Assembly: GCA_018652625.1 (NCBI GenBank)
Contig: JABIBT010000008.1
Span: 1 to 35,067, forward strand
Length of the DNA: 35,067 nucleotides
Source of the DNA: Candidatus Woesearchaeota archaeon
Lineage (GTDB): Archaea > Nanobdellota > Nanobdellia > SCGC-AAA011-G17 > PNOQ01
Direction: 5' to 3'
The notes under the pieces were generated by a model. That model saw nothing but the letters and a program-made list of their open reading frames with translations. It had not been told where the DNA came from and made no database searches. Shown here in pieces: positions 11,736 to 35,067 of the stretch; position 1 is the first letter of the stretch, and each line of letters opens with the position of its first letter. The translations under genes and the position numbers were made by a program.

Positions 11736-12233
11736 TTACTTAAATTTATGTAGATTTAGATATGATTTTGTTCTGTGAAATATATCGTGAGCATCATCAA
11801 TTAGCTCTTTTTCGTATCTTTCTCTTCTTCCAGTTGATATAAATTTATCAAATATTGCTCTTGTGAATTTCATAATTGGGTTGTTTTCCCATTTTTGTTC
11901 ATAATCTGTTTCTATTGATGCTTCATACTTGATAGTCAGGTTTCCGTTTACTGTTTTTCCTTGTTTTGTTTCTATAGTTTTATAATTTTTTAGAGAAATT
12001 GATAAGTTTATGAGATATCTTGAATAATTATCTATATATTTTTGTCCTTCCCACTTTATTTTTACTGATTTTCTCTCTCCTTTTATTATATCTTCATATT
12101 CTCTTTCATAGAAATTGTAATTGTGGAGATCAAACCATGCCTTTAGAGTTCTGTACAACTCTATCATGTTGAACTGGGCCTCTTTTTTTATTACTAATTT
12201 ATCTCCCCTAATTATCCAATCTTGTTCTGGCAT
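11736..12233 (-). CDS. Unknown family protein, paralog 1 of 3
   Basis: FNMIELYRTLKAWFDLHNYNFYEREYEDIIKGERKSVKIKW shared pattern with the next two ORFs. Confidence 0.8.
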   Translation of the reverse strand: MPEQDWIIRGDKLVIKKEAQFNMIELYRTLKAWFDLHNYNFYEREYEDIIKGERKSVKIKWEGQKYIDNYSRYLINLSISLKNYKTIETKQGKTVNGNLTIKYEASIETDYEQKWENNPIMKFTRAIFDKFISTGRRERYEKELIDDAHDIFHRTKSYLNLHKFK

Positions 12234-12271
12234 ATATAAATTTTAGAAAATGGAATATATAAAGTTTTTCT

Positions 12272-12781
12272 TTAGTATTGGTGCATTGTTAAGAATGATT
12301 TTATTTCATCGTGGAAAGCATACGTTTTTGCATATAATTCTATTTTATAATCGTCTATTCTATCTTTTATTATAAACTTTTCATAGATGGATTGGCCCAA
12401 TCCCTTTCTTTCTCCCCATTTTTTACTTCTGTCTGTTACAATATTTGATTTTATTCTTAGTTCTACTTCTCCACGCTGTATTTTTATTTTTTTCCCTTCT
12501 TTTTCTATTTCTATATCTTTTAAACCCAAAATAAAAAATCCAATTCTGAGATGATATGCGAAATAGTCACTTTTGTTTTTTTGAGCACTCCAACGTATTT
12601 CTATTTGTTGTGATTCTCCTTTCATTCTTTGTGCAAATTTTTCTTCCTGAAAATTATTATCTTGATCTCCATATCCTTGGTAGTCTAACCAAAACTTCAT
12701 GTGTTTATATAGCTCTCCCAGATCAAATATTCCTCTCCACTTCATTTTGATTTCTGGGACCACAGTAATTGTATCTTGCAT
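12272..12781 (-). CDS. Unknown family protein, paralog 2 of 3
   Basis: FDLGELYKHMKFWLDYQGYGDQDNNFQEEKFAQRMKGESQQIEIRWSAQK. Confidence 0.8.
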   Translation of the reverse strand: MQDTITVVPEIKMKWRGIFDLGELYKHMKFWLDYQGYGDQDNNFQEEKFAQRMKGESQQIEIRWSAQKNKSDYFAYHLRIGFFILGLKDIEIEKEGKKIKIQRGEVELRIKSNIVTDRSKKWGERKGLGQSIYEKFIIKDRIDDYKIELYAKTYAFHDEIKSFLTMHQY

Positions 12782-12816
12782 ATCTTAAATTTTGTTGATG
12801 AAGTTTATAAGTTTTT

Positions 12817-13299
12817 TTATCTGAAGAATTCTAATACTTCTTTTGCTGTTTTCTGAAGATCTTTTACTTCCTCTAAAAGTTTAAGTTTATTTTTTGTTAT
12901 ATTCTCTTTGATTAGAACATTGGTGTATAGTCTGAATAAAAGATTTTTAATTCTTGATGAGGACCATTGCTCTCTGTAGTCTAGAACTACACTGGCAGTA
13001 AATGTTATTTTTGAGGTTCCTGAAACCAGGTTGTCTGAAGCAGGATGTAGTTCTTTAAATCTAAATTTTATTACCATATCATATTTCATAAAATCTGTTA
13101 TTTCTCTTTCTGCTTTCCATATTAATCCTATCTCATCACCTATATCTATTTTTTTATGTTGGTGATCTGCTTCTAAGAAATCATAGCCGTTTTCATCTAG
13201 CCAAGCATGCATTGTTTGATATAGCTTTTCAAGATTAAAAACACCTTTGTGTCTTATTTGGTATCCTTCGCTTACTTGGGCTTTTATTTTCTTACTCAT
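12817..13299 (-). CDS. Unknown family protein, paralog 3 of 3
   Basis: FNLEKLYQTMHAWLDENGYDFLEADHQHKKIDIGDEIGLIWKAERE. Confidence 0.8.
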   Translation of the reverse strand: MSKKIKAQVSEGYQIRHKGVFNLEKLYQTMHAWLDENGYDFLEADHQHKKIDIGDEIGLIWKAEREITDFMKYDMVIKFRFKELHPASDNLVSGTSKITFTASVVLDYREQWSSSRIKNLLFRLYTNVLIKENITKNKLKLLEEVKDLQKTAKEVLEFFR

Positions 13300-17803: not shown

Positions 17804-18916
17804 ATGTTTAAATTTTTAAAAGATAAATTAAAGGATGCTGCTAAGAAGTTTTCTAAAGAGGCAGAGGAAGTTACTGAAGAACCTAAAGTTGAAGAAAAAG
17901 TAAAAGAAGAAGTTAAAGAGGAAATTAAAGAAGAGTTAGAAGAAGTTTTAGATGAGAAGACTTCTGAGAAAGTTGCTGAAGAAGTGGTTAAAGAATCTAA
18001 GGAAGAAATTATTGAAGATATTCCAAAAGAAGAACCTAAAAAGGAAAAGTTAAGTTTTAAAGAAAAATTAAAAAAAGCTGTTTCTAAGAAAATTTCTAGC
18101 AAAAAGTTTGAAGAGTTGTTTGATGAGTTAGAGTTATCATTATTAGAAGCTAATGTTGCTGTTGAAGTTATTGATAGATTAAAAGAAGGTTTGAAGATGG
18201 AAATTGTTGATATTCCTATTAAAGGGAAGGTTGATGAGTTTATTTTAGAGAAGTTAAAAGATAATATTAAAGAGTTGTTTAAGGAAGAGTTAGATTTAGT
18301 TGAAGTTATTAAGAAAAGTGAGAAACCTTATGTTATTGTATTTTTGGGTGTGAATGGTTCTGGAAAAACTACTTCTATAGCTAAAGTTGCTAAATTGTTG
18401 CAGAGTAATGGTTTAACTTGTGTTTTGGCTGCTGCAGATACTTTTAGAGCTGCTGCGATAGATCAGTTACAGTTACATGCTGATAAGTTAGGAGTTAAGA
18501 TGATTAAGCACGATTATGGCTCGGATGCTGCTGCTGTAGGTTTTGATGCTATAAAACATGCTAAGAATAAAGATGTTGATGTGGTTTTAATTGATACTGC
18601 TGGCAGAATGCATTCTAATTCTAATTTAATGGATGAGTTAAAGAAAGTTATCAGGGTTGTTAATCCTAATTTTAAGATATTTGTTGGAGAGTCAATAGTT
18701 GGTAATGATTGTATAGAGCAGAGTAGGAAGTTTAGTAGTTCTGTTGGTGTGGACGGTATAATATTATCTAAGGCTGATGTTGATGAGAAAGGTGGAACTG
18801 CTATTTCGATTTCTTATGTTGTTGATAAACCCATAATTTATTTGGGTACTGGGCAGGGCTATGGGGATATTGAGAAGTTTTCTGTTAGTAAATTGATGGA
18901 TAGTTTGGGGCTTTAA
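17804..18916 (+). CDS. ftsY: SRP receptor FtsY with an N-terminal charged extension
   Basis: GVNGSGKTTSIAKVAKLL, AADTFRAAAIDQLQ, DTAGRMHSNSNLMDEL, SKADVDEKGGTAIS, YLGTGQGYGDIEKF. Confidence 0.97.
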   Translation: MFKFLKDKLKDAAKKFSKEAEEVTEEPKVEEKVKEEVKEEIKEELEEVLDEKTSEKVAEEVVKESKEEIIEDIPKEEPKKEKLSFKEKLKKAVSKKISSKKFEELFDELELSLLEANVAVEVIDRLKEGLKMEIVDIPIKGKVDEFILEKLKDNIKELFKEELDLVEVIKKSEKPYVIVFLGVNGSGKTTSIAKVAKLLQSNGLTCVLAAADTFRAAAIDQLQLHADKLGVKMIKHDYGSDAAAVGFDAIKHAKNKDVDVVLIDTAGRMHSNSNLMDELKKVIRVVNPNFKIFVGESIVGNDCIEQSRKFSSSVGVDGIILSKADVDEKGGTAISISYVVDKPIIYLGTGQGYGDIEKFSVSKLMDSLGL

Positions 18917-19260
18917 AATAATTTTTCTAACTCTTTTTTTACTTTCTCAAATGTTTTATCATCAAGAACCCCTATTTTCTTTTTAACTAATGATTTGTTT
19001 AGATTTATAATTTTATCAACTTTAATTCTGCTCGTAGTTGGTAGTTTTCCTTCAATTAAATTTTTACTTTCTATTAATACTGAGCATCTTGCATCTTTTA
19101 AGTTGGAAGTTATCCCACAAACTATGAAATCTTCAGTATTAAAATTATAAGTATCATTGGAAACAATTAAAACGGGTCTTTGTTTGATGGTTGTAAGATC
19201 TGTAAATGGTAAGGGAATTATTAAAATGTCTTTTTGTTTAAATTGTGTCCCAGATGTCAT
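18913..19260 (-). CDS. PemK/MazF-like toxin
   Basis: KQKDILIIPLPFTDLTTIKQRPVLIVSNDTYN...DFIVCGITSN; overlaps an AbrB-type antitoxin ORF. Confidence 0.88.
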   Translation of the reverse strand: MTSGTQFKQKDILIIPLPFTDLTTIKQRPVLIVSNDTYNFNTEDFIVCGITSNLKDARCSVLIESKNLIEGKLPTTSRIKVDKIINLNKSLVKKKIGVLDDKTFEKVKKELEKLF

Positions 19261-19492
19261 CTTCTTTGCTACTCCAGAATTTTTTTAATGAAATTTCACT
19301 TAATTTTAGTAGATCTTTGAAATCATCTTCCATTTTTTTTGATATTTTTTGAGTTTTTTCCAGTAAAATCTTTCCATTTGATTCCATTACTATTAATTCG
19401 TCACCTTGATTTATTCCTGCTATTTCTCTTATGTCTAGAGGGATTGCTATCTGTCCTTTTTCTGAAACTTTTATTGTTTTTATGGAAGTCAT
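19238..19492 (-). CDS. AbrB/MazE-like antitoxin (SpoVT-AbrB domain)
   Basis: TIKVSEKGQIAIPLDIREIAGINQGDELIVMESNGKILLEK. Confidence 0.92.
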   Translation of the reverse strand: MTSIKTIKVSEKGQIAIPLDIREIAGINQGDELIVMESNGKILLEKTQKISKKMEDDFKDLLKLSEISLKKFWSSKEDDIWDTI

Positions 19493-19648: not shown

Positions 19649-20992
19649 ATGGTTATGGACAAATTAAGTTCAACATTGAAAAACACCTTAAGCAAAATCA
19701 CAGGTGCTACTTTCATAGATGAGAATTTGGTTAATGAAATTGTTAAAGATATTCAAAGAGCTTTACTTACTTCTGATGTTAATGTTAAACTAGTTTTTGA
19801 GCTATCTAAGAATATTAAAGAAAGAGCGTTAAAAGAAAAAGCACCAAAGGGTGTAGGACAAAAAGAATTCTTAGTTAAGATTGTTTATGACGAACTAGTA
19901 AAGTTCCTAGGAAAAGAAAAAAAAGGAATTAAAATTACAAAAAAACAACCGTTCAAAATTATGTTAGTTGGTTTGTTTGGAACTGGAAAAACTACAATAG
20001 CAGCAAAATTAGGAAATTATTATACAAAAAGAGGGCATAAGGTTGCTTTAGTAGGTTTAGATGTTTATAGGCCGGCTGCAATGGATCAATTAGAACAGTT
20101 AGCAAAGTCAATAAACATACCATATTACATAAATAGAGAAGAAAAAAACCCAAAGAAAATTTGGAAATCTTTGAAAGATGAAGTAAAGAAATATGATATT
20201 GTAATTGTAGATACTGCGGGAAGAGATGCATTGTCAGAAGATTTAGTTAAAGAAATTGAAGAATTAAATAAAGAAATCAAACCAGAAGAAAAGTTACTTG
20301 TAATAAATGCAGATATTGGTCAAACTGCAGAATCCCAAGCAAAAAAATTCCATGAGTCTTGTGGTATTACTGGAGTTGCAATTACTAAGATGGATGGAAC
20401 TGCAAAAGCTGGTGGAGCTTTGTCAGCAGCAGCAATTACTGGAGCGCCTGTTAAGTTTTTAGGCGTAGGTGAAAAAGTAGATGATATTGAAGAGTTTAAT
20501 CCTGAAGGTTTTGTTTCTAGATTGTTAGGAATGGGAGACTTGGAAGCTTTATTAGAAAAAGTTAGAGTTGAAATTGATGAAGAAACTGCTGAAGATTTAG
20601 GAAAGAAGTTTTTGAAAGGAGAGTTTAATTTTTTAGATTTATATGAACAAATTCAAGGAATGAAAAAATTAGGTCCCATGAATAAGATTATGGAAATGAT
20701 TCCTGGAATGAGTGGGATGAAGATTCCTAAAGATATGTTGGATGTTCAAGATTCTAAGTTGAAGAAGTGGAAATTTATTATGCAATCAATGACAAAGACA
20801 GAATTAGAAAATCCGGATTTGGTTTTTAATAGGAAAAGAATTGATAGGATTGCAAAGGGTGCGGGTTGTACTGCTACTGAAGTTAGAGAATTGCTTAAAC
20901 AGTATAGACAAAGTAAGAAAATGATGAAGATGATGAAAGGCGATCCTAATAAATTAATGAAGAAGTTTAAAGGTAAGATTCCTGGAATGTGA
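19649..20992 (+). CDS. srp54: Signal recognition particle 54 kDa protein (SRP54/Ffh)
   Basis: GLFGTGKTTIAAKLGNYY, DVYRPAAMDQLEQLA, DTAGRDALSEDLVKEI, Met-rich M domain ending MKMMKGDPNKLMKKFKGKIPGM; TATA TTTATAAAT at ~19619. Confidence 0.98.
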   Translation: MVMDKLSSTLKNTLSKITGATFIDENLVNEIVKDIQRALLTSDVNVKLVFELSKNIKERALKEKAPKGVGQKEFLVKIVYDELVKFLGKEKKGIKITKKQPFKIMLVGLFGTGKTTIAAKLGNYYTKRGHKVALVGLDVYRPAAMDQLEQLAKSINIPYYINREEKNPKKIWKSLKDEVKKYDIVIVDTAGRDALSEDLVKEIEELNKEIKPEEKLLVINADIGQTAESQAKKFHESCGITGVAITKMDGTAKAGGALSAAAITGAPVKFLGVGEKVDDIEEFNPEGFVSRLLGMGDLEALLEKVRVEIDEETAEDLGKKFLKGEFNFLDLYEQIQGMKKLGPMNKIMEMIPGMSGMKIPKDMLDVQDSKLKKWKFIMQSMTKTELENPDLVFNRKRIDRIAKGAGCTATEVRELLKQYRQSKKMMKMMKGDPNKLMKKFKGKIPGM

Positions 20993-22742: not shown

Positions 22743-23354
22743 ATGAAAAAAATACTTTATTCTGGAGCCGAGGCCCATTTATACTTAGAGAAGGATAGAT
22801 TAGTCAAGGAAAGAATTTCTAAAGGATATAGGCATGAATTTATTGATAATGCTAAAAGAAAATATCCAACAAGAAAAGAATTTAAGATTTTATTGAAAGG
22901 AAAGAAAATAGGAATGGATGTTCCTGAAGTTTTTGAAGTTGATGATAAAGAAATGAAAGTAGTTATGGAATTTGTTAAAGGAGATTTACTAAAAGAGACA
23001 TTAGATAATTATTCTAAAAAGAAGAGAGAAGAAGTTTGTAAGAAAATTGGAATTCAAGTTGCTAAGATGCACGATAATCAGATAATCCATGGGGATTTGA
23101 CAACAAGTAATATGATACTAAAAGAAGAAAAAGTTTTTTTTATTGATTTTGGCTTAGGTTTTATTTCTCATAAAATTGAAGATAAGGCCGTTGATTTACA
23201 TTTACTTAGACAGGCTATGGAAAGCAAGCATTTTAAGTATGAAAATAATTTCGAATTGGTTTTAAAAGGTTATAAAAAATCAAGTAATTTTAAGGAAACT
23301 TTAGAGAGATTAGAGAAGGTAGAGCAAAGAGGAAGGTATAAGAGAAAAGCTTAA
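22743..23354 (+). CDS. bud32: Bud32 kinase (KEOPS component)
   Basis: GAEAHLYLEKDRLVKERISKGYRHE, IIHGDLTTSNMIL, FIDFGLGFISHKIEDKAVDLHLLRQAMESKH. Confidence 0.96.
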   Translation: MKKILYSGAEAHLYLEKDRLVKERISKGYRHEFIDNAKRKYPTRKEFKILLKGKKIGMDVPEVFEVDDKEMKVVMEFVKGDLLKETLDNYSKKKREEVCKKIGIQVAKMHDNQIIHGDLTTSNMILKEEKVFFIDFGLGFISHKIEDKAVDLHLLRQAMESKHFKYENNFELVLKGYKKSSNFKETLERLEKVEQRGRYKRKA

Positions 23355-27512: not shown

Positions 27513-29489
27513 ATGCAAAAAAGAGGCCAAGTAACTATTTATATTATTCTGGGAATTGTCATTTTAGTAGTGTTTGGATTAATCTTTTTTTTAAGAAATG
27601 AAATAGTAAAAAATGATTTCCAAAGTCAGTTAGCTAGAGTTAAAGTTCCTGAACAGATTCAACCAATAAAGAACTATGTTGATGAATGTTTGGAAGAAAC
27701 TATTATGTCTGGAGCCAGAAATATTGCATCAAAAGGGGGATATTTAGAAGTTCCTTTTGAAGACGTTCCTAGATCTGTTTTAAATCCTTTTTCTAATTCT
27801 TTAGAACTTGGGAGTTCGGGAGTGGCATATTGGTACTATAAAAGTGCAAACAATTTGGATAAAACCCAGGTTCCAACTATTGAAAGTATGGAAGAAGATT
27901 TAGAGGAGTACATTAATGATAATTTTGATTTCTGTTTGAAAGGTTTGGATAGATATTGGGAAGAAGGTTTTGAGATTTCTTATGAAGAAGATGTAACTAG
28001 TGAAGTTAATATTGAAGATTCGCATATAGAAGTTAAAGTTTTTACCCCAACAGATATTAAAAAAGATGATGTTGGGAAATATTTTGATCAACATTTAGTA
28101 GATGTGAATGTAAATTTAGGAAAATTATACAATTTGGCTGTGGATGTTTTTGAGGAAGAGAATGAGAACAAATTTTTAGAACATAAGACTATAGATATAA
28201 TGGTTGTTTATGATGAGATTCCCTATTCCAATACAGAATTTACTTGTAACAGATTGATATGGCAAAAATCTGAAGTTGCTAAAGATTTCAAAGATATTAT
28301 TAATTTAAATTTGGGGGCTTTGAGATTAGAAGGTTCTGATTATACTAAAACAAAAGAAGATAATGGTTATTTTGAAGTAGATGTACGTGCAGACGAAGAT
28401 ATTTCTACAAATTTTCAATATTTAACAAACTGGCCATTTGAATTGGATGTTTCTCCAAGCAAAGGAGATGTTTTGATGGGTGATGCAATAACTCAGGAAA
28501 ATTCAGATATTTATAAATATTTGAATTTATTTTTCTGTCTTAATAACTACCATTTTGTTTATGATGTTAAGTATCCTGTTTTGATAAGTTTGGAAGATGA
28601 TGAAGGATTTAGTTTCCAATATGCAACAATGGTTGTTGTTGATAATAACTATCCTGGAACTTATCCTGGAGAGATTATGAATTATGAATCCACTGGTGTT
28701 CTTGGAGAAGAGTTTTGTGGTAGCGGAATAAATACGATAAACGTTATGGCTGTAGATTCTGGTGATACTAGATTGTTGGAAGGCGTTGATATTAGTTATA
28801 GTTGTTTTAGTTCAAGCTGTTATGTTGGTAGAACTGGCTCTAGCGGAGAATTATCTAAGAAGTTCCCTGTGTGTGTTAATGGAAGAGTGTACGCAGATAA
28901 AGAAGGATATTATTCGGCTAGTGAAACTCTAAGCACAAATGAGGAATCTCAAATTTCTTTAGTTTTGGAGCCATACTATACTTTGGATTTAGAGATTAAG
29001 GTTGCTGATTTAGATACTGGTTTTATTAGAGAACTTAGTAATGATGAAAGTGTAATATTCCAATTTGAAAATGTTAACAATGGGTATAAAACAATGGTTA
29101 CTAATGAAGCAGATGAAGTTACATTAGTTGCTGGAGAATATGAAATTTTGACTTATTTGTTAAGGGCTGGAGATGCCGTAAAGATTGAGGGAGAAACTCA
29201 CGTTGAGTGCGTGGATGTTCCAAGATCCGGATTGTTAGGAATTATTGGACTTAATAGGGAAGAATGTTTTGAAGTCTCAAGCGAAGATAGTGAAGTAGAC
29301 CAGTTTGTTTCTGGAGGCTCTGCTTTTGAGTTTGGTTTTAGACATAATGATTTAATAAATTCAAATAAACTTACTTTGTATGCTATGCAGGACTTTGTTC
29401 CAACGAAACATAGTGAAATGTTATCAATTTTAAATAATATTCCTGGAAATAACTTAAGAGGAGGATTTGTTTACCCCGAGTTAGAATGA
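27513..29489 (+). CDS. Large extracytoplasmic protein with pilin-like/class III signal N-terminus
   Basis: MQKRGQVTIYIILGIVILVVFGLIFFLRNE: K-R-G-Q followed by a hydrophobic helix; 658 aa. Confidence 0.8.
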   Translation: MQKRGQVTIYIILGIVILVVFGLIFFLRNEIVKNDFQSQLARVKVPEQIQPIKNYVDECLEETIMSGARNIASKGGYLEVPFEDVPRSVLNPFSNSLELGSSGVAYWYYKSANNLDKTQVPTIESMEEDLEEYINDNFDFCLKGLDRYWEEGFEISYEEDVTSEVNIEDSHIEVKVFTPTDIKKDDVGKYFDQHLVDVNVNLGKLYNLAVDVFEEENENKFLEHKTIDIMVVYDEIPYSNTEFTCNRLIWQKSEVAKDFKDIINLNLGALRLEGSDYTKTKEDNGYFEVDVRADEDISTNFQYLTNWPFELDVSPSKGDVLMGDAITQENSDIYKYLNLFFCLNNYHFVYDVKYPVLISLEDDEGFSFQYATMVVVDNNYPGTYPGEIMNYESTGVLGEEFCGSGINTINVMAVDSGDTRLLEGVDISYSCFSSSCYVGRTGSSGELSKKFPVCVNGRVYADKEGYYSASETLSTNEESQISLVLEPYYTLDLEIKVADLDTGFIRELSNDESVIFQFENVNNGYKTMVTNEADEVTLVAGEYEILTYLLRAGDAVKIEGETHVECVDVPRSGLLGIIGLNREECFEVSSEDSEVDQFVSGGSAFEFGFRHNDLINSNKLTLYAMQDFVPTKHSEMLSILNNIPGNNLRGGFVYPELE

Positions 29490-32400
29490 AAGATAAAATA
29501 GTAATGGCAATGTTTTGTATCTTTTTGATAATTTTTAGTAGTGTGAATGTTAGTGCTTTAAGTTTTGGAGGAAATGAGAAAGATGATTTGGGGGAGATAG
29601 TTCTAATCAACGTTGCAAATCCAGAAGATATGAGAATTAGTGCTGATTATGTGAGGAATAAAAAATTTCCATTAATTATACAACTAACCGGAACTACTTT
29701 GGAGAGTTTTTTATGGGGAAGTGATGGTTCTGAAGAGTTAACTACATTATTTGGTGGACTTAACATAGAAAGAATTCATATTGATAGAGATAGACTATCT
29801 AGATATGTTTCTGGAGTAAATGAAGTGGCTCCAGATGGAGGGTATTTTGTCAATCCGGATGGTAGCGTGGATTTAGGATATGTAAAAGTTGATATAAGAA
29901 AAATCCCAAAAGAAGAGGATTTACCCGATAGAATAGATTTAAATTTTACTGCTGAGATTTATTTTGATACCGATTCTAGCTTTAGCGTTTTTGGAAAGCA
30001 GGATTTGTTTTTGGAGTTGGATTCTAATAAAGATGATGGAGAAATTGGAAGTAGTGTTTGGGATGGAAGAGCAAGAATAGTTTTTTTGGAAATTAAAGGA
30101 GATAAAGCAACTTTCCAAGTTTATGATGGTGCCAATAGGAAACTAGGTGGTCCTTTTACTTTAAGACCTGGGCAACAACAAATACTTAGATTGAATGATG
30201 GTCCGGCATTTTTGGATAATCAAGTTAGATTTAAGCTGCAAGGAGTATATGGTTCTGAGAAAAAGGCTGAACTTAATATCTATAGAAATGGAAAATCTAT
30301 AGAAGTTACTTTAGTTGAAGGGATGAACCTTTATAGTGGAAGCGATTGGATTCTTGAAGATATAGAAAGAACCCAAGTGGAGTTAAGAAATTCTAAAACT
30401 AGAGAAAAAGTAATATTAAGTAAAGCAGATTTGGGAACACTAAAAATAGATGTTTGTGATGGTGTTAAACGTTTGGAGGTGGAGGATAATAAGGTATTTT
30501 TAGAAGAGTTTGATTTTGTTAAAGGTGAAGACTTTGAAGAAAAATTGAAGAGTGAGAGTATTAGTTTTTATTGTAGTGCTATTGATGAATATAAGAAAGC
30601 TTTGGAATTTTCTTTGGGCGAAGAATCTGCTGAATTGAAATTTAAGATTGCTGGTTTATATGAGCACCTTGGTGATACGGTTGCTGCTTTGGAAAATTAT
30701 GAAAGTATATCTTCTGGTTCTGAATTGTTTGAAGATGAGAAGATTCAAAACAAAATTAGTTATATTAGTGTTTTAGTTTCTGAAGAGATTACAAATTATA
30801 AAACATTAGATGATGGAGTTAATGTTTATTTGAAAGAAATTTCTTCAGAGGAAAAAGAAGGCACATATTTTGATTATGTTGAGGTGGTTGATGGTGTTCG
30901 ACAAAGTGAAAAAAGAGGTATGTTAAATGGAAAATCGATTATCAAGGGTAGTGGTGGAGATTGGTATGTTGATAGAATAAGGCCAGATGAAATTATTTTA
31001 GTTAAAAAATATGATGACAAAAAGAAAGAAGATTTGAAAGAAAGAGTAGATATTGGAGAAAATATTTTAGAAAAAGACATATTGATTGATATTAAAAATA
31101 TAAAAACTCCGTATAGTGTGGTTGTTAGTGCAATTCCTGGAGATGGTAGAAGTTATGGTGTGAGTCATTTTCAAGTTCATATTCCTGTTGAAAAGAGTGC
31201 TATACAGTGGACTCCTGAGCAAATTGACAATATGATTGAGAAGACACACAAAGCTATTGAAGATCTTGAGAACATTATGGATAAGTTAGGGAGTTTTATT
31301 AAAGGAATGAAAGCTGCTTGTTTTGGAATTTATAGTATCTTATTAATTAAGAATTCTTTCTTTAAAGATAGTGGAGCTAGGAAACAAGTCATTGAAGAAA
31401 GAGCAATATTATGTAAAAAAGAGATAAGTAGTAATGATCCAAGTTTACCATATAATCGGTTTGAAGATTGTATGGAGCATCACGTTGATGCAGATGAAGC
31501 TAAAATAAAAGATTTGACTAATATTAAAAAAGAAACAGATGAATTGTTTACAGGATTTAAGTCTACTGATGTTGAAAAAGTAAATAAAGTTGCTCAAAAG
31601 ATGGGTGTTGATAGTGAAGAATTAAATAACTTAATGAAATATAGTGATCAGACTGGAGTTACTTCGAAGGAAATTCAAAGATTGACTGAATTATCTTTGT
31701 ATGATAATGCTAAGTTTAAGGAAGAATGGGAGGGATATTCTGATAAAATTGATAAAGCGGTTAAACTTGATGAAAGAATAAAGTTTAATGAAGTTTCAGA
31801 GGATGATAAAGAGAGAATTCAAACTCTTGCTGCTCCGATTTTTGACTCAAGTAAACAAACAAAGATTGTTGGAATGGAAGGTCAAAGTACTATTCAAAAA
31901 GTAAATGCAAAATATTCTGATTCCAGTGGAAATGTCTATGAAGCCGGTTCTTTGACTATGGGAAAGGATAAATTTTATACAACTGGGGTGGATGGAAATG
32001 TAGTTGAGTTACAACAACGTATGGATGATTATGATGTGAATGTAGTTGAAATTGATGGTTTTTCTGTGTTTAGGGGAGAAGATGATAAATATTATTTATA
32101 TGATGGAAAAATAAATGAGCCGTATGCAAAAAGTTATTCTTCTTTGGGAGAGGAAAGAAAATTAGAAATAAATAAAGATGGAAAGTTATGGATTTTTCCG
32201 TTTAGATCAAAAACTACAGGTACTATATATGAAAAAATAGATAATGATTATGCAAACTATGTTGTTGTTAATTATGGAAAAACGGGTGGAATCCAATCCT
32301 ATACAATACATAATGTTGGCCCAAATGGAGAAATAGATTTTCCAAATAGTGTAGATGACAGTGTAGTTGCTCATATTTTAAATGTAGGCGATACCCGTAG

Positions 32401-35067
32401 AAATATGGATAGTGGGGGAGATAGGGACAACTCGTTGAAGTTGGCTCTTGAAATAGATTCTAAATATAAAACCTTGTCTGCAAGTAGATTAAATGAAGGT
32501 AAGAATGTTTTATTTGATGGGGTTTCTTATACTGTAAGTAGTGCTGCTTCAAGATCTATTGGAGAAACGACTTCCCAATGTACCAATTATATGAGTAAGG
32601 GGGACTGTGCATTGTTGTATAATTTTTGTGATCCGGTTATGTGCCCTGCTTCAAGATTTGATTTAGGAAATAGGTGGGATATTGATAATGTTGTTCAGAC
32701 TGGAATTATTGGAAGTTTGTTTTTAGGAATGCCTAATTGGATTGTTATTAATCCTGAGAAAGGGGAAAATATCTTCCCACCAATCTGTTTAACTGGAGTA
32801 CATGCTGGTTTGGATAATGTAAGAAGTAAATTTGAAGGCTTTGAAGATTGTTTACAAAAAGCAAAAACAGAAGGAAGAGATGTAGGAATTTGTAATACTA
32901 TTAAAAGTATTTATATGTGTGAAATTTTTTGGAGAGAAGGACTGGCTATTTTTGGAAGTCTTGGTAAATTAGCTGATGTTATTTCTGAAAAGGTATTTGG
33001 AATCTTTGGTGGGGATGGATGGGAATATACTAAGTGGCAAGGTTCTTGGAATGAATTAAAAGATAATGTTAATTTCTTTACTTCAGAATATGCTAGAAGT
33101 GCGTTTGCTTCTTATCATGCTAGAAGTTTAGGAGAATTTGGAGGAGAGATTTGTAGGGCCGCCATTTATGGTAAGGTTCCTGGAACAGGAGATTTTATTG
33201 GAGAGTTGTTGGAACCAGATAGTCCTTACCAGTTTACTGGATGGTTTGATGAGTTAGAGTATTCAGATGTTGATCAAGGAAAATCTATTTATAGGGTTTA
33301 TTATCATATCTATGCTGGAAGAGATGAAGATGTAGAATTTTTAGTTTATTTGAAAGGAGCAGGATTAAGTAATTTATATGTCACAAATCCAGAAAGAGGA
33401 GTTAGAAGAGAAGTTTTACAAGAGGGGGAATATGCCGATAGAAGTTATACAATAACTGGAGATTCTGGTTATAATACAATGTGTATTTTTATTAATGGAA
33501 AAGAGTATTGCGGATTTGGTAAGGTTTCTAGCACTTTTTCTAGTAAATATTTACAAGATATGATGTTAGAAGATGATTTGAATAGAAAGGACATTGATTC
33601 TGCTGAAGAGTGTATGCCAGATAGTTTACATTTAACACCTTATTTGCCTGGAGTTCCTACTCCTCCGGTGCCTGGAGCTGGTGCTATGAGCCAGAGTGGA
33701 GTTATTAGAAAGTGTGCTATGAATGATCCGGATGGGTATGGAAGTAGATGGGTTAAAGTTGGAACTTGTGGTACAGATGAACAAGGCAATTCTTTAGGGA
33801 TGTGTTATTTGGATTATGAGAACAGTGCGGACTTTAATGATTTAAAGAAAAAAGATGAGATTGCTAAAGAATGGATAGAGAAACAAATTAAAGATGGAGT
33901 TACTGATGATTCTCTTAATGAATTTAATACTATTCTGGATAAAGAAGATGAAAAGGTTGACTATCTTATAGAGGAAATTAAGAGCAAATTTAAAGTTGAT
34001 AAAATTAATCGGTTGTTAGTTTATCCAGCTTATTATTTAGATAGTGCAGATAGTATAAAAGACTCTGGAATCTATATACGAAGCCATACTAAAGTCGGGG
34101 ATATTTATGCTGCTTTGGGAAAAGTTTTAGAAATTAAAAAAAGTTTGGTTGATGGTGGTGGAGAAAGTGATGATGAAGAGATGAAAGAAGGAGAGCTTTC
34201 TGAATCTGATTATATTAAGGTTAGGATTAGTAAAGAGGGAATATTTAAATCTGGAACTGGATTTATTTATGAGGGTGGAGAATGGAAGATAAATTATATT
34301 TCTGCTTTGCCTGGCTACTCTTTCTATAGTGATGATATTGAAACTGGATTGAAGGGGATATATCATGAGATTAATAAACTTGAGGAAAATGGGGATGGGG
34401 GGAATCTGATTGTTGAGGATTATAATGGTGAAAGATATGGTTGGTTCCCAACATACTATTTTGATAGTTATGATCATTTCAAGAGGATTTTTACAAATAT
34501 AGAAAAGTTGGATTTTAATGATTATTTAGATATAAATTGTATTTATTTTAATCCTGAAAACAATGATGAATTTAAAGTTAGAGTAATTAGGAATAATGCA
34601 ATGGATGAAAATTTTAAGTTTAAGGAAGGGGCTTGGGAAAGTTCAACATTGCGTGATGATTTTGATGAAGGTTTAGAAGATCTATGGGAATTTATTGAGG
34701 AAAGATACACTCAAGAAAATTCAGATGGGATAAAGGTTACTTATGAAAATGAAGATAAGGAAGTATTGGTCCCATTTTATTTGTTTAAAAGTTTGGATGA
34801 TTTAAGAAAAGGTTTTTGTTATTTTGGTTCTGGAGAAATAGTAGAGATTCCTTTTTTTGAGTTATTGGCTCAAACTGAAGAATTAATTGAAGAAGAAGGA
34901 TTGACTAGTGAAACTCAAAGGTCTTTGGATGCATTATATGGTGCTGCTGAAGATATAATCTGTTCAGATGATGATGTTTTAAATAAGTTGATAGAGTTTA
35001 GTGATTCCCTCCAAGATAATTCTTTTATTGGTCCACTGGAAGTTGAAGAGATTCAAGAAGAGATAGA
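29486..35067 (+). CDS. Giant secreted protein, at least 1860 aa, truncated at window end
   Basis: Frame read by eye from ATG 29486 with no stop seen to 35067; signal peptide MKDKIVMAMFCIFLIIFSSVNVSA; TPR-like segment AIDEYKKALEFSLGEESAELKFKIAGLYEHLGDTVAALENYESI; Cys-rich segment. Not in the supplied ORF track, presumably because it lacks a stop in the window. Confidence 0.9.
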   Translation, partial: MKDKIVMAMFCIFLIIFSSVNVSALSFGGNEKDDLGEIVLINVANPEDMRISADYVRNKKFPLIIQLTGTTLESFLWGSDGSEELTTLFGGLNIERIHIDRDRLSRYVSGVNEVAPDGGYFVNPDGSVDLGYVKVDIRKIPKEEDLPDRIDLNFTAEIYFDTDSSFSVFGKQDLFLELDSNKDDGEIGSSVWDGRARIVFLEIKGDKATFQVYDGANRKLGGPFTLRPGQQQILRLNDGPAFLDNQVRFKLQGVYGSEKKAELNIYRNGKSIEVTLVEGMNLYSGSDWILEDIERTQVELRNSKTREKVILSKADLGTLKIDVCDGVKRLEVEDNKVFLEEFDFVKGEDFEEKLKSESISFYCSAIDEYKKALEFSLGEESAELKFKIAGLYEHLGDTVAALENYESISSGSELFEDEKIQNKISYISVLVSEEITNYKTLDDGVNVYLKEISSEEKEGTYFDYVEVVDGVRQSEKRGMLNGKSIIKGSGGDWYVDRIRPDEIILVKKYDDKKKEDLKERVDIGENILEKDILIDIKNIKTPYSVVVSAIPGDGRSYGVSHFQVHIPVEKSAIQWTPEQIDNMIEKTHKAIEDLENIMDKLGSFIKGMKAACFGIYSILLIKNSFFKDSGARKQVIEERAILCKKEISSNDPSLPYNRFEDCMEHHVDADEAKIKDLTNIKKETDELFTGFKSTDVEKVNKVAQKMGVDSEELNNLMKYSDQTGVTSKEIQRLTELSLYDNAKFKEEWEGYSDKIDKAVKLDERIKFNEVSEDDKERIQTLAAPIFDSSKQTKIVGMEGQSTIQKVNAKYSDSSGNVYEAGSLTMGKDKFYTTGVDGNVVELQQRMDDYDVNVVEIDGFSVFRGEDDKYYLYDGKINEPYAKSYSSLGEERKLEINKDGKLWIFPFRSKTTGTIYEKIDNDYANYVVVNYGKTGGIQSYTIHNVGPNGEIDFPNSVDDSVVAHILNVGDTRRNMDSGGDRDNSLKLALEIDSKYKTLSASRLNEGKNVLFDGVSYTVSSAASRSIGETTSQCTNYMSKGDCALLYNFCDPVMCPASRFDLGNRWDIDNVVQTGIIGSLFLGMPNWIVINPEKGENIFPPICLTGVHAGLDNVRSKFEGFEDCLQKAKTEGRDVGICNTIKSIYMCEIFWREGLAIFGSLGKLADVISEKVFGIFGGDGWEYTKWQGSWNELKDNVNFFTSEYARSAFASYHARSLGEFGGEICRAAIYGKVPGTGDFIGELLEPDSPYQFTGWFDELEYSDVDQGKSIYRVYYHIYAGRDEDVEFLVYLKGAGLSNLYVTNPERGVRREVLQEGEYADRSYTITGDSGYNTMCIFINGKEYCGFGKVSSTFSSKYLQDMMLEDDLNRKDIDSAEECMPDSLHLTPYLPGVPTPPVPGAGAMSQSGVIRKCAMNDPDGYGSRWVKVGTCGTDEQGNSLGMCYLDYENSADFNDLKKKDEIAKEWIEKQIKDGVTDDSLNEFNTILDKEDEKVDYLIEEIKSKFKVDKINRLLVYPAYYLDSADSIKDSGIYIRSHTKVGDIYAALGKVLEIKKSLVDGGGESDDEEMKEGELSESDYIKVRISKEGIFKSGTGFIYEGGEWKINYISALPGYSFYSDDIETGLKGIYHEINKLEENGDGGNLIVEDYNGERYGWFPTYYFDSYDHFKRIFTNIEKLDFNDYLDINCIYFNPENNDEFKVRVIRNNAMDENFKFKEGAWESSTLRDDFDEGLEDLWEFIEERYTQENSDGIKVTYENEDKEVLVPFYLFKSLDDLRKGFCYFGSGEIVEIPFFELLAQTEELIEEEGLTSETQRSLDALYGAAEDIICSDDDVLNKLIEFSDSLQDNSFIGPLEVEEIQEEI

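Follow-up and report, generated by a model that had tools for sequence, protein, structure and literature searches.

A family of giant secreted DPANN proteins with a conserved chassis and exchangeable hydrolase modules at two ports

The reading frame that opens at ATG 29486 encodes, on sequence comparison, one member of a large and conserved family of giant secreted proteins in Woesearchaeota and Pacearchaeota. The family is widespread in DPANN archaea and its members carry swappable enzymes that cut bacterial cell walls, a hint that the archaea may attack bacteria or attach to them. The explanation that we favor, and hold to be reasonably probable, is that the giant is a Sec-secreted surface chassis, presumably stabilized by disulfides, which would carry exchangeable, mostly peptidoglycan-cutting hydrolases at two ports and bring them to bear on the envelope of neighboring bacteria. 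The chassis would probably be tied to the archaeal surface through a co-encoded partner, predicted to be a membrane-anchored stalk of beta domains with a pilin-like N terminus.

A truncated giant gene and its relatives

As the sequence-only reading had proposed, the giant frame is open to the edge of the window (the whole stretch of DNA that was analyzed, 35,067 bases). Re-translation from ATG 29486 gave 1860 codons without a stop, for which the probability by chance is about 10^-67 (31% GC, 0.080 stops per random codon), and homologues align over most of the 1860 aa. The window is an entire contig of a 658-kb, 87%-complete genome in 36 contigs, and because the contig itself ends at 35067, the stop codon and true C terminus are absent from the assembly. 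The gene (29486..35067, +) is thus complete at the N terminus and truncated at the C terminus. Its absence from the ORF track is real and has a trivial cause, since a frame without a stop runs off the contig. No second match to the giant was found within its own assembled genome. An assembly artefact was ruled out for the family, members of which are present in complete chromosomes, and a very large secreted protein in a small-genome DPANN archaeon is confirmed. Pfam and NCBIfam matched no family in the visible 1860 aa, S-layer families included, which agrees with the earlier impression that no standard catalytic domain is present; neither an S-layer nor a housekeeping protein is indicated.

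Protein searches matched the giant in 9/9 genomes of its own family, at 33-39% identity for most, and in 80/103 genomes of its order. Across the phylum, a core profile matched 188 of 371 sampled genomes, generally once per genome, and matches in distant families were weak (E around 1e-5). The contigs of GTDB species genomes gave no match when searched with the single giant sequence; an alignment-based scan of these genomes gave 261 loci, of which 80 were kept, with Woesearchaeota, Pacearchaeota, and Nanoarchaeota among them. The complete chromosome of GW2011_AR20 (CP010426.1) is one of the 80 kept loci with the core. Complete homologue ORFs (n = 52) range from 825 to 3227 aa with a median of 2060. 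Separately, one family of the order (f3; G010, G014, and G015) gave weak core matches only (E 1e-8 to 1e-13) in ORFs of 1008-1214 aa, possibly a much diverged short form of the giant.

The chassis and its upstream partner

The chassis keeps a conserved order of signal peptide, N block, TPR/helical region, and Cys core. By hydropathy, residues about 1-24 (29486..29557, +) are the sole strongly hydrophobic segment of the window giant, and the segment is kept at the N terminus of homologues, in line with the signal peptide first read from the letters; it is of Sec type. Four constant blocks follow. The N block (residues 26-310; 29561..30415, +) was recovered in 57/69 giants by iterated profile and had no significant match to the PDB by sequence. 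The TPR-like block (residues 362-406; 30569..30703, +) rests on an aligned block and on TPR matches in homologues (Pfam TPR_2 in six, best E 1.6e-6); the TPR-like stretch noted earlier therefore holds for the homologues but falls below threshold in the window copy. The conserved helical block (residues 545-668; 31118..31489, +) is present in 66/69 giants. Last comes the conserved core (residues 901-1490; 32186..33955, +), with a mean column identity of 31% in a 60-sequence alignment. Its heart, spanning Cys 1032-1145 (32579..32920, +), contains a conserved, hydrophobic, glycine-rich stretch, VVQTGIIGSLFLGMPNWIV, and 13 of the core's cysteines are invariant across the 60 homologues. This confirms the Cys-rich central segment picked out by the sequence-only reading, and no other part of the protein is as conserved.

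An AF2 model of the core gave a C-terminal beta domain of high confidence (residues 1249-1348; 33230..33529, +; block means about 80-97) and modeled the helical Cys-rich part poorly. The beta domain is probably Ig-like, with weak Foldseek matches to ApaG and GH2 beta-sandwich domains. In Foldseek searches of the PDB and of viral models, the core had no match at E <= 0.001 and weak beta-sandwich likeness at most, and as far as these tools show it is an unrecognized fold. PDB matches to designed toroids were set aside as meaningless, being limited to a single helical stretch of 41 residues, and a tape-measure identity was dropped, having come from one weak Pfam match in one homologue.

Immediately upstream of the giant lies a gene for a 658-aa partner (27513..29489, +) with a pilin-like N terminus, whose long ectodomain is rich in beta structure and has conserved cysteines. 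The product starts MQKRGQVTIYIILGIVILV, and the stop of the gene overlaps the start of the giant gene in an ATGA at 29486-29489. A survey for co-occurrence with the upstream gene, which had been suggested as a check, found the partner directly upstream and on the same strand in all 55 order loci with at least 1.5 kb of upstream sequence. In a second, overlapping set it was upstream in 65/66 loci, and in the one exception the giant gene is apparently broken into two frames. From this synteny we infer that the partner may bind the giant and retain it at the cell surface.

The partner's N terminus, MQKRGQ followed by VTIYIILGIVILV, is of prepilin type, with a short basic leader, a G/Q junction, and a hydrophobic helix (KRGQ and then a hydrophobic stretch), and Q6 is at least 90% conserved. 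Typical type IV pilins carry a Glu at +5. This residue is absent from the mature partner, where most members read QVTIFI.... The N terminus thus resembles those of archaeal prepilins, and its processing and assembly as a pilin are putative. In the AF2 model (pLDDT 85.4), an N-terminal helix (residues 4-42, 39 residues) precedes a long ectodomain of beta domains, which gave partial matches to CnaB/Ig-like pilin and adhesin domains. Genomes of the window's family contain T2SSF-type platform genes (9/9) and an A24 prepilin peptidase (8/9).

On the 3' side, the giant gene is followed in 30-35 loci, within a few bases in 30, by a gene for a polytopic membrane protein (about 260 aa, range about 220-300), including L047, L050, L053, L056, L057, L061, L062, and L064; it was not seen beside the giant in the window's family. 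One of these proteins was searched against NCBIfam and matched no family. Other genes of the window were also recorded. A RIO/Bud32-like small kinase (22743-23354, +; Pfam RIO1, E 3e-15) has a conserved place 5' of the cassette in some relatives (a cluster of seven loci). On the opposite strand, a MazEF-type toxin-antitoxin pair (18913-19260, -, and 19238-19492, -; PemK_toxin E 7e-19, MazE_antitoxin E 2e-8) sits between two genes for SRP-type GTPases, which by their reading are ftsY (17804-18916) and srp54 (19649-20992). Three consecutive genes of 160-169 aa at 11736-13299 (-) look by eye like tandem paralogues and have no Pfam match.

Modules at two ports and their likely targets

Catalytic modules occupy two variable sites, the gap between the N block and the TPR block (port 1) and the C terminus (port 2). 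At port 1, the two blocks are 33-52 residues apart in most of the window's family and about 60-750 apart elsewhere; most homologues outside that family carry inserts here, which in some include an SLT, M23, or metallophosphoesterase domain. Judged by block spacing, port 1 of the window copy (residues 311-361; 30416..30568, +) is empty. Pfam assigned SLT (9), metallophosphoesterase (3), phage-lysozyme-like (3), glucosaminidase (2), and M23 peptidase (1) domains in 57 N-terminal/middle regions, and SLT (9), GDSL lipase (4), Amidase_3 (2), 3D (2), and Amidase_2, NlpC/P60, and VanY (1 each) in 59 C-terminal regions, where the figures for NlpC/P60, VanY, Amidase_2, and glucosaminidase are counts over alignment members and not per locus. 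Those SLT, metallophosphoesterase, and M23 domains whose position was mapped fall within the N block-TPR gap.

With an SLT profile built for this analysis, 20/69 proteins were positive, and the presumed catalytic Glu, read by eye, is kept in all 20. The AR20 giant, L053, has its SLT domain at residues 381-486, and this domain matches the solved proteins MltE and MltC as well as the T7 gp16 transglycosylase. The core tree requires at least four changes in SLT at port 1 and at least five at port 2, and therefore modules are gained and lost on a chassis that is retained. Many homologues have no recognizable hydrolase, and several long inserts match nothing. A CHAP/NlpC-like sequence seen by eye in L052 fails Pfam and was not counted. 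In a woesearchaeal genome that also holds L021, the giant gene of L043 (7932-13007 and upstream) is divided among several neighboring frames, and an SLT-like piece, INPVIDVESGGDSKAVSCTGPAGLMQLS, has a short frame to itself, as in a split gene or one with frameshifts.

In the window copy, the last 370 residues (C-terminal linker modules, residues 1491-1860; 33956..35065, +) are homologous to the stretch that precedes SLT in relatives. They align weakly (17-25% identity) with this stretch in L015-L017, and the contig stops shortly before the point equivalent to the start of their SLT; port 2 of the window copy would start just past the contig end. The core tree groups the window copy with SLT-bearing relatives (SH-aLRT 94); L013 and L014, which are closest to the window giant by identity and have no recognizable hydrolase, fall outside the clade of the window copy and SLT-bearing members (support 98). 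Because of the alignment with L015-L017 and the grouping in the tree, the missing C-terminal part likely carries SLT. No SLT was found on any assembled contig of the window genome.

Mur ligase domains were found in 0/9 genomes of the window's family and in 5/103 of the order, leaving 98/103 without; such domains were found in 12/14 control genomes. Since these cells make no peptidoglycan, their wall-cutting modules imply foreign walls as targets. These are likely bacterial cell walls, given homologues with peptidoglycan hydrolases in organisms without Mur ligases, and the bacteria concerned may be living ones. The GDSL and metallophosphoesterase modules are not wall-specific. The earlier idea that the giant is a host-contact or surface factor stands in part: the giant is a plausible host- or prey-contact factor. 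The companion idea of an export machine found no direct support.

Of the competing explanations, the one that survives best, though we think it unlikely, is a mainly structural or adhesive surface protein, such as an S-layer-like or host-attachment scaffold, on which hydrolases are secondary decorations that aid binding and not attack. The chassis is far commoner than any single module and many members lack a recognizable enzyme, the partner is likened to pilin and adhesin beta domains, and a probably Ig-like domain lies within the core. However, intact catalytic motifs and the repeated, independent gain of wall hydrolases with unrelated folds argue for selection for cutting, and the protein is generally single copy per genome with no Pfam S-layer match. 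Less probable again is a nutritional enzyme system, in which the modules would digest the peptidoglycan, lipid, and phosphate esters of dead bacteria without contact-dependent attack; GDSL lipase and metallophosphoesterase modules do occur alongside the wall hydrolases and peptidoglycan scavenging by Pacearchaeota has already been proposed (PMC11537232, in the passages searched), but a conserved chassis of 2000 aa and an always-linked, pilin-like partner exceed the needs of a free digestive enzyme. We give the least credence to a machine of type IV-pilus kind for export or DNA uptake, in which the partner would be a pseudopilin and the giant would span the envelope as a channel or tape like T7 gp16. 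The pilin-like N terminus, the T2SSF and prepilin peptidase genes, the likeness of SLT to T7 gp16, and the hydrophobic glycine-rich stretch of the core speak for it. Against it are a core with no predicted transmembrane helix, a partner with a 600-aa ectodomain and no Glu at +5, and the finding that conserved neighbors of the cassette include neither a pilus ATPase nor a platform gene.

Our preferred reading, an exchangeable set of hydrolases on a secreted surface chassis, can be taken further, though only tentatively. The giant and its pilin-like partner might form a dedicated two-component DPANN apparatus for breaching bacterial envelopes, in which a new-fold, Cys-rich core would serve in delivery or docking and lineages would re-arm by swapping hydrolases at the two ports. 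If this were true, the bacteria that serve a lineage as host or prey would be predictable from its modules. For uncultured Woesearchaeota and Pacearchaeota, the widespread, generally single-copy cassette is a concrete marker with which to ask whether they live on bacteria or attack them, and it supplies defined proteins to express, localize, and assay, with a core fold that matches nothing solved.

Comparison with known systems

Giant DPANN proteins with a transglycosylase domain are already known. Castelle et al. 2021 (PMC8204110) described fam00969, a set of DPANN proteins that reach 3,000 aa, contain a murein-like transglycosylase domain, and are widespread among Pacearchaeota and Woesearchaeota, for which attachment to bacterial walls was suggested; Vigneron et al. 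2022 (PMC9723730) cited a similar gene in AR20 and proposed predatory Woesearchaeota. In the passages searched, fam00969 shares with the giants its size, predicted extracellular location, taxonomic range, and SLT in some members. The present proteins agree in length (1860+ aa here, 825-3227 aa in the 52 complete homologues) and in the occurrence of Woesearchaeota and Pacearchaeota among the 80 loci with the core. SLT itself is absent from the visible 1860 aa and the assembled genome, and in related genera it is C-terminal, just past the equivalent point. Because the AR20 giant (CP010426.1), a member of the present family, carries SLT, and a transglycosylase gene of AR20 is the one cited in those passages, the two families are very probably the same. 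They differ in description: fam00969 is a category described through SLT, whereas here SLT is one of several modules, placed at two ports and missing in many members, and the constant parts are the chassis and the pilin-like partner. The passages searched mention neither the two-port architecture nor a constant core nor a pilin-like partner linked to the giant, and all three appear to be unreported.

Strock et al. 2025 (PMC12352652) reported that archaeal hydrolases kill bacteria and noted many homologues in Nanoarchaeota. Those enzymes, as described in the passages searched, likewise belong to archaea without peptidoglycan and direct catalytic domains against bacterial walls, with Nanoarchaeota rich in them. 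They are, however, modular enzymes picked by a known wall-binding domain, for example a halophile M23 enzyme, whereas the present giants mostly have no recognized wall-binding domain.

A further likeness is to the internal virion protein gp16 of T7, a giant transglycosylase of the phage ejection apparatus. It, too, joins an SLT domain to a long body. The sequence match is confined to SLT, no similarity was found beyond it, and no phage genes were seen as conserved neighbors of the cassette.

Bacterial polymorphic toxins also swap enzymatic modules at the C terminus of an otherwise constant secreted chassis, as seen here in the homologues; in the window copy the truncation hides this feature. 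No module-specific immunity gene was seen beside the giant, and the downstream gene, where present, encodes the same family of membrane protein whatever the module. Unlike those toxins, the present family has a second, internal exchange port, and its apparent targets are cell walls that the producer itself lacks.
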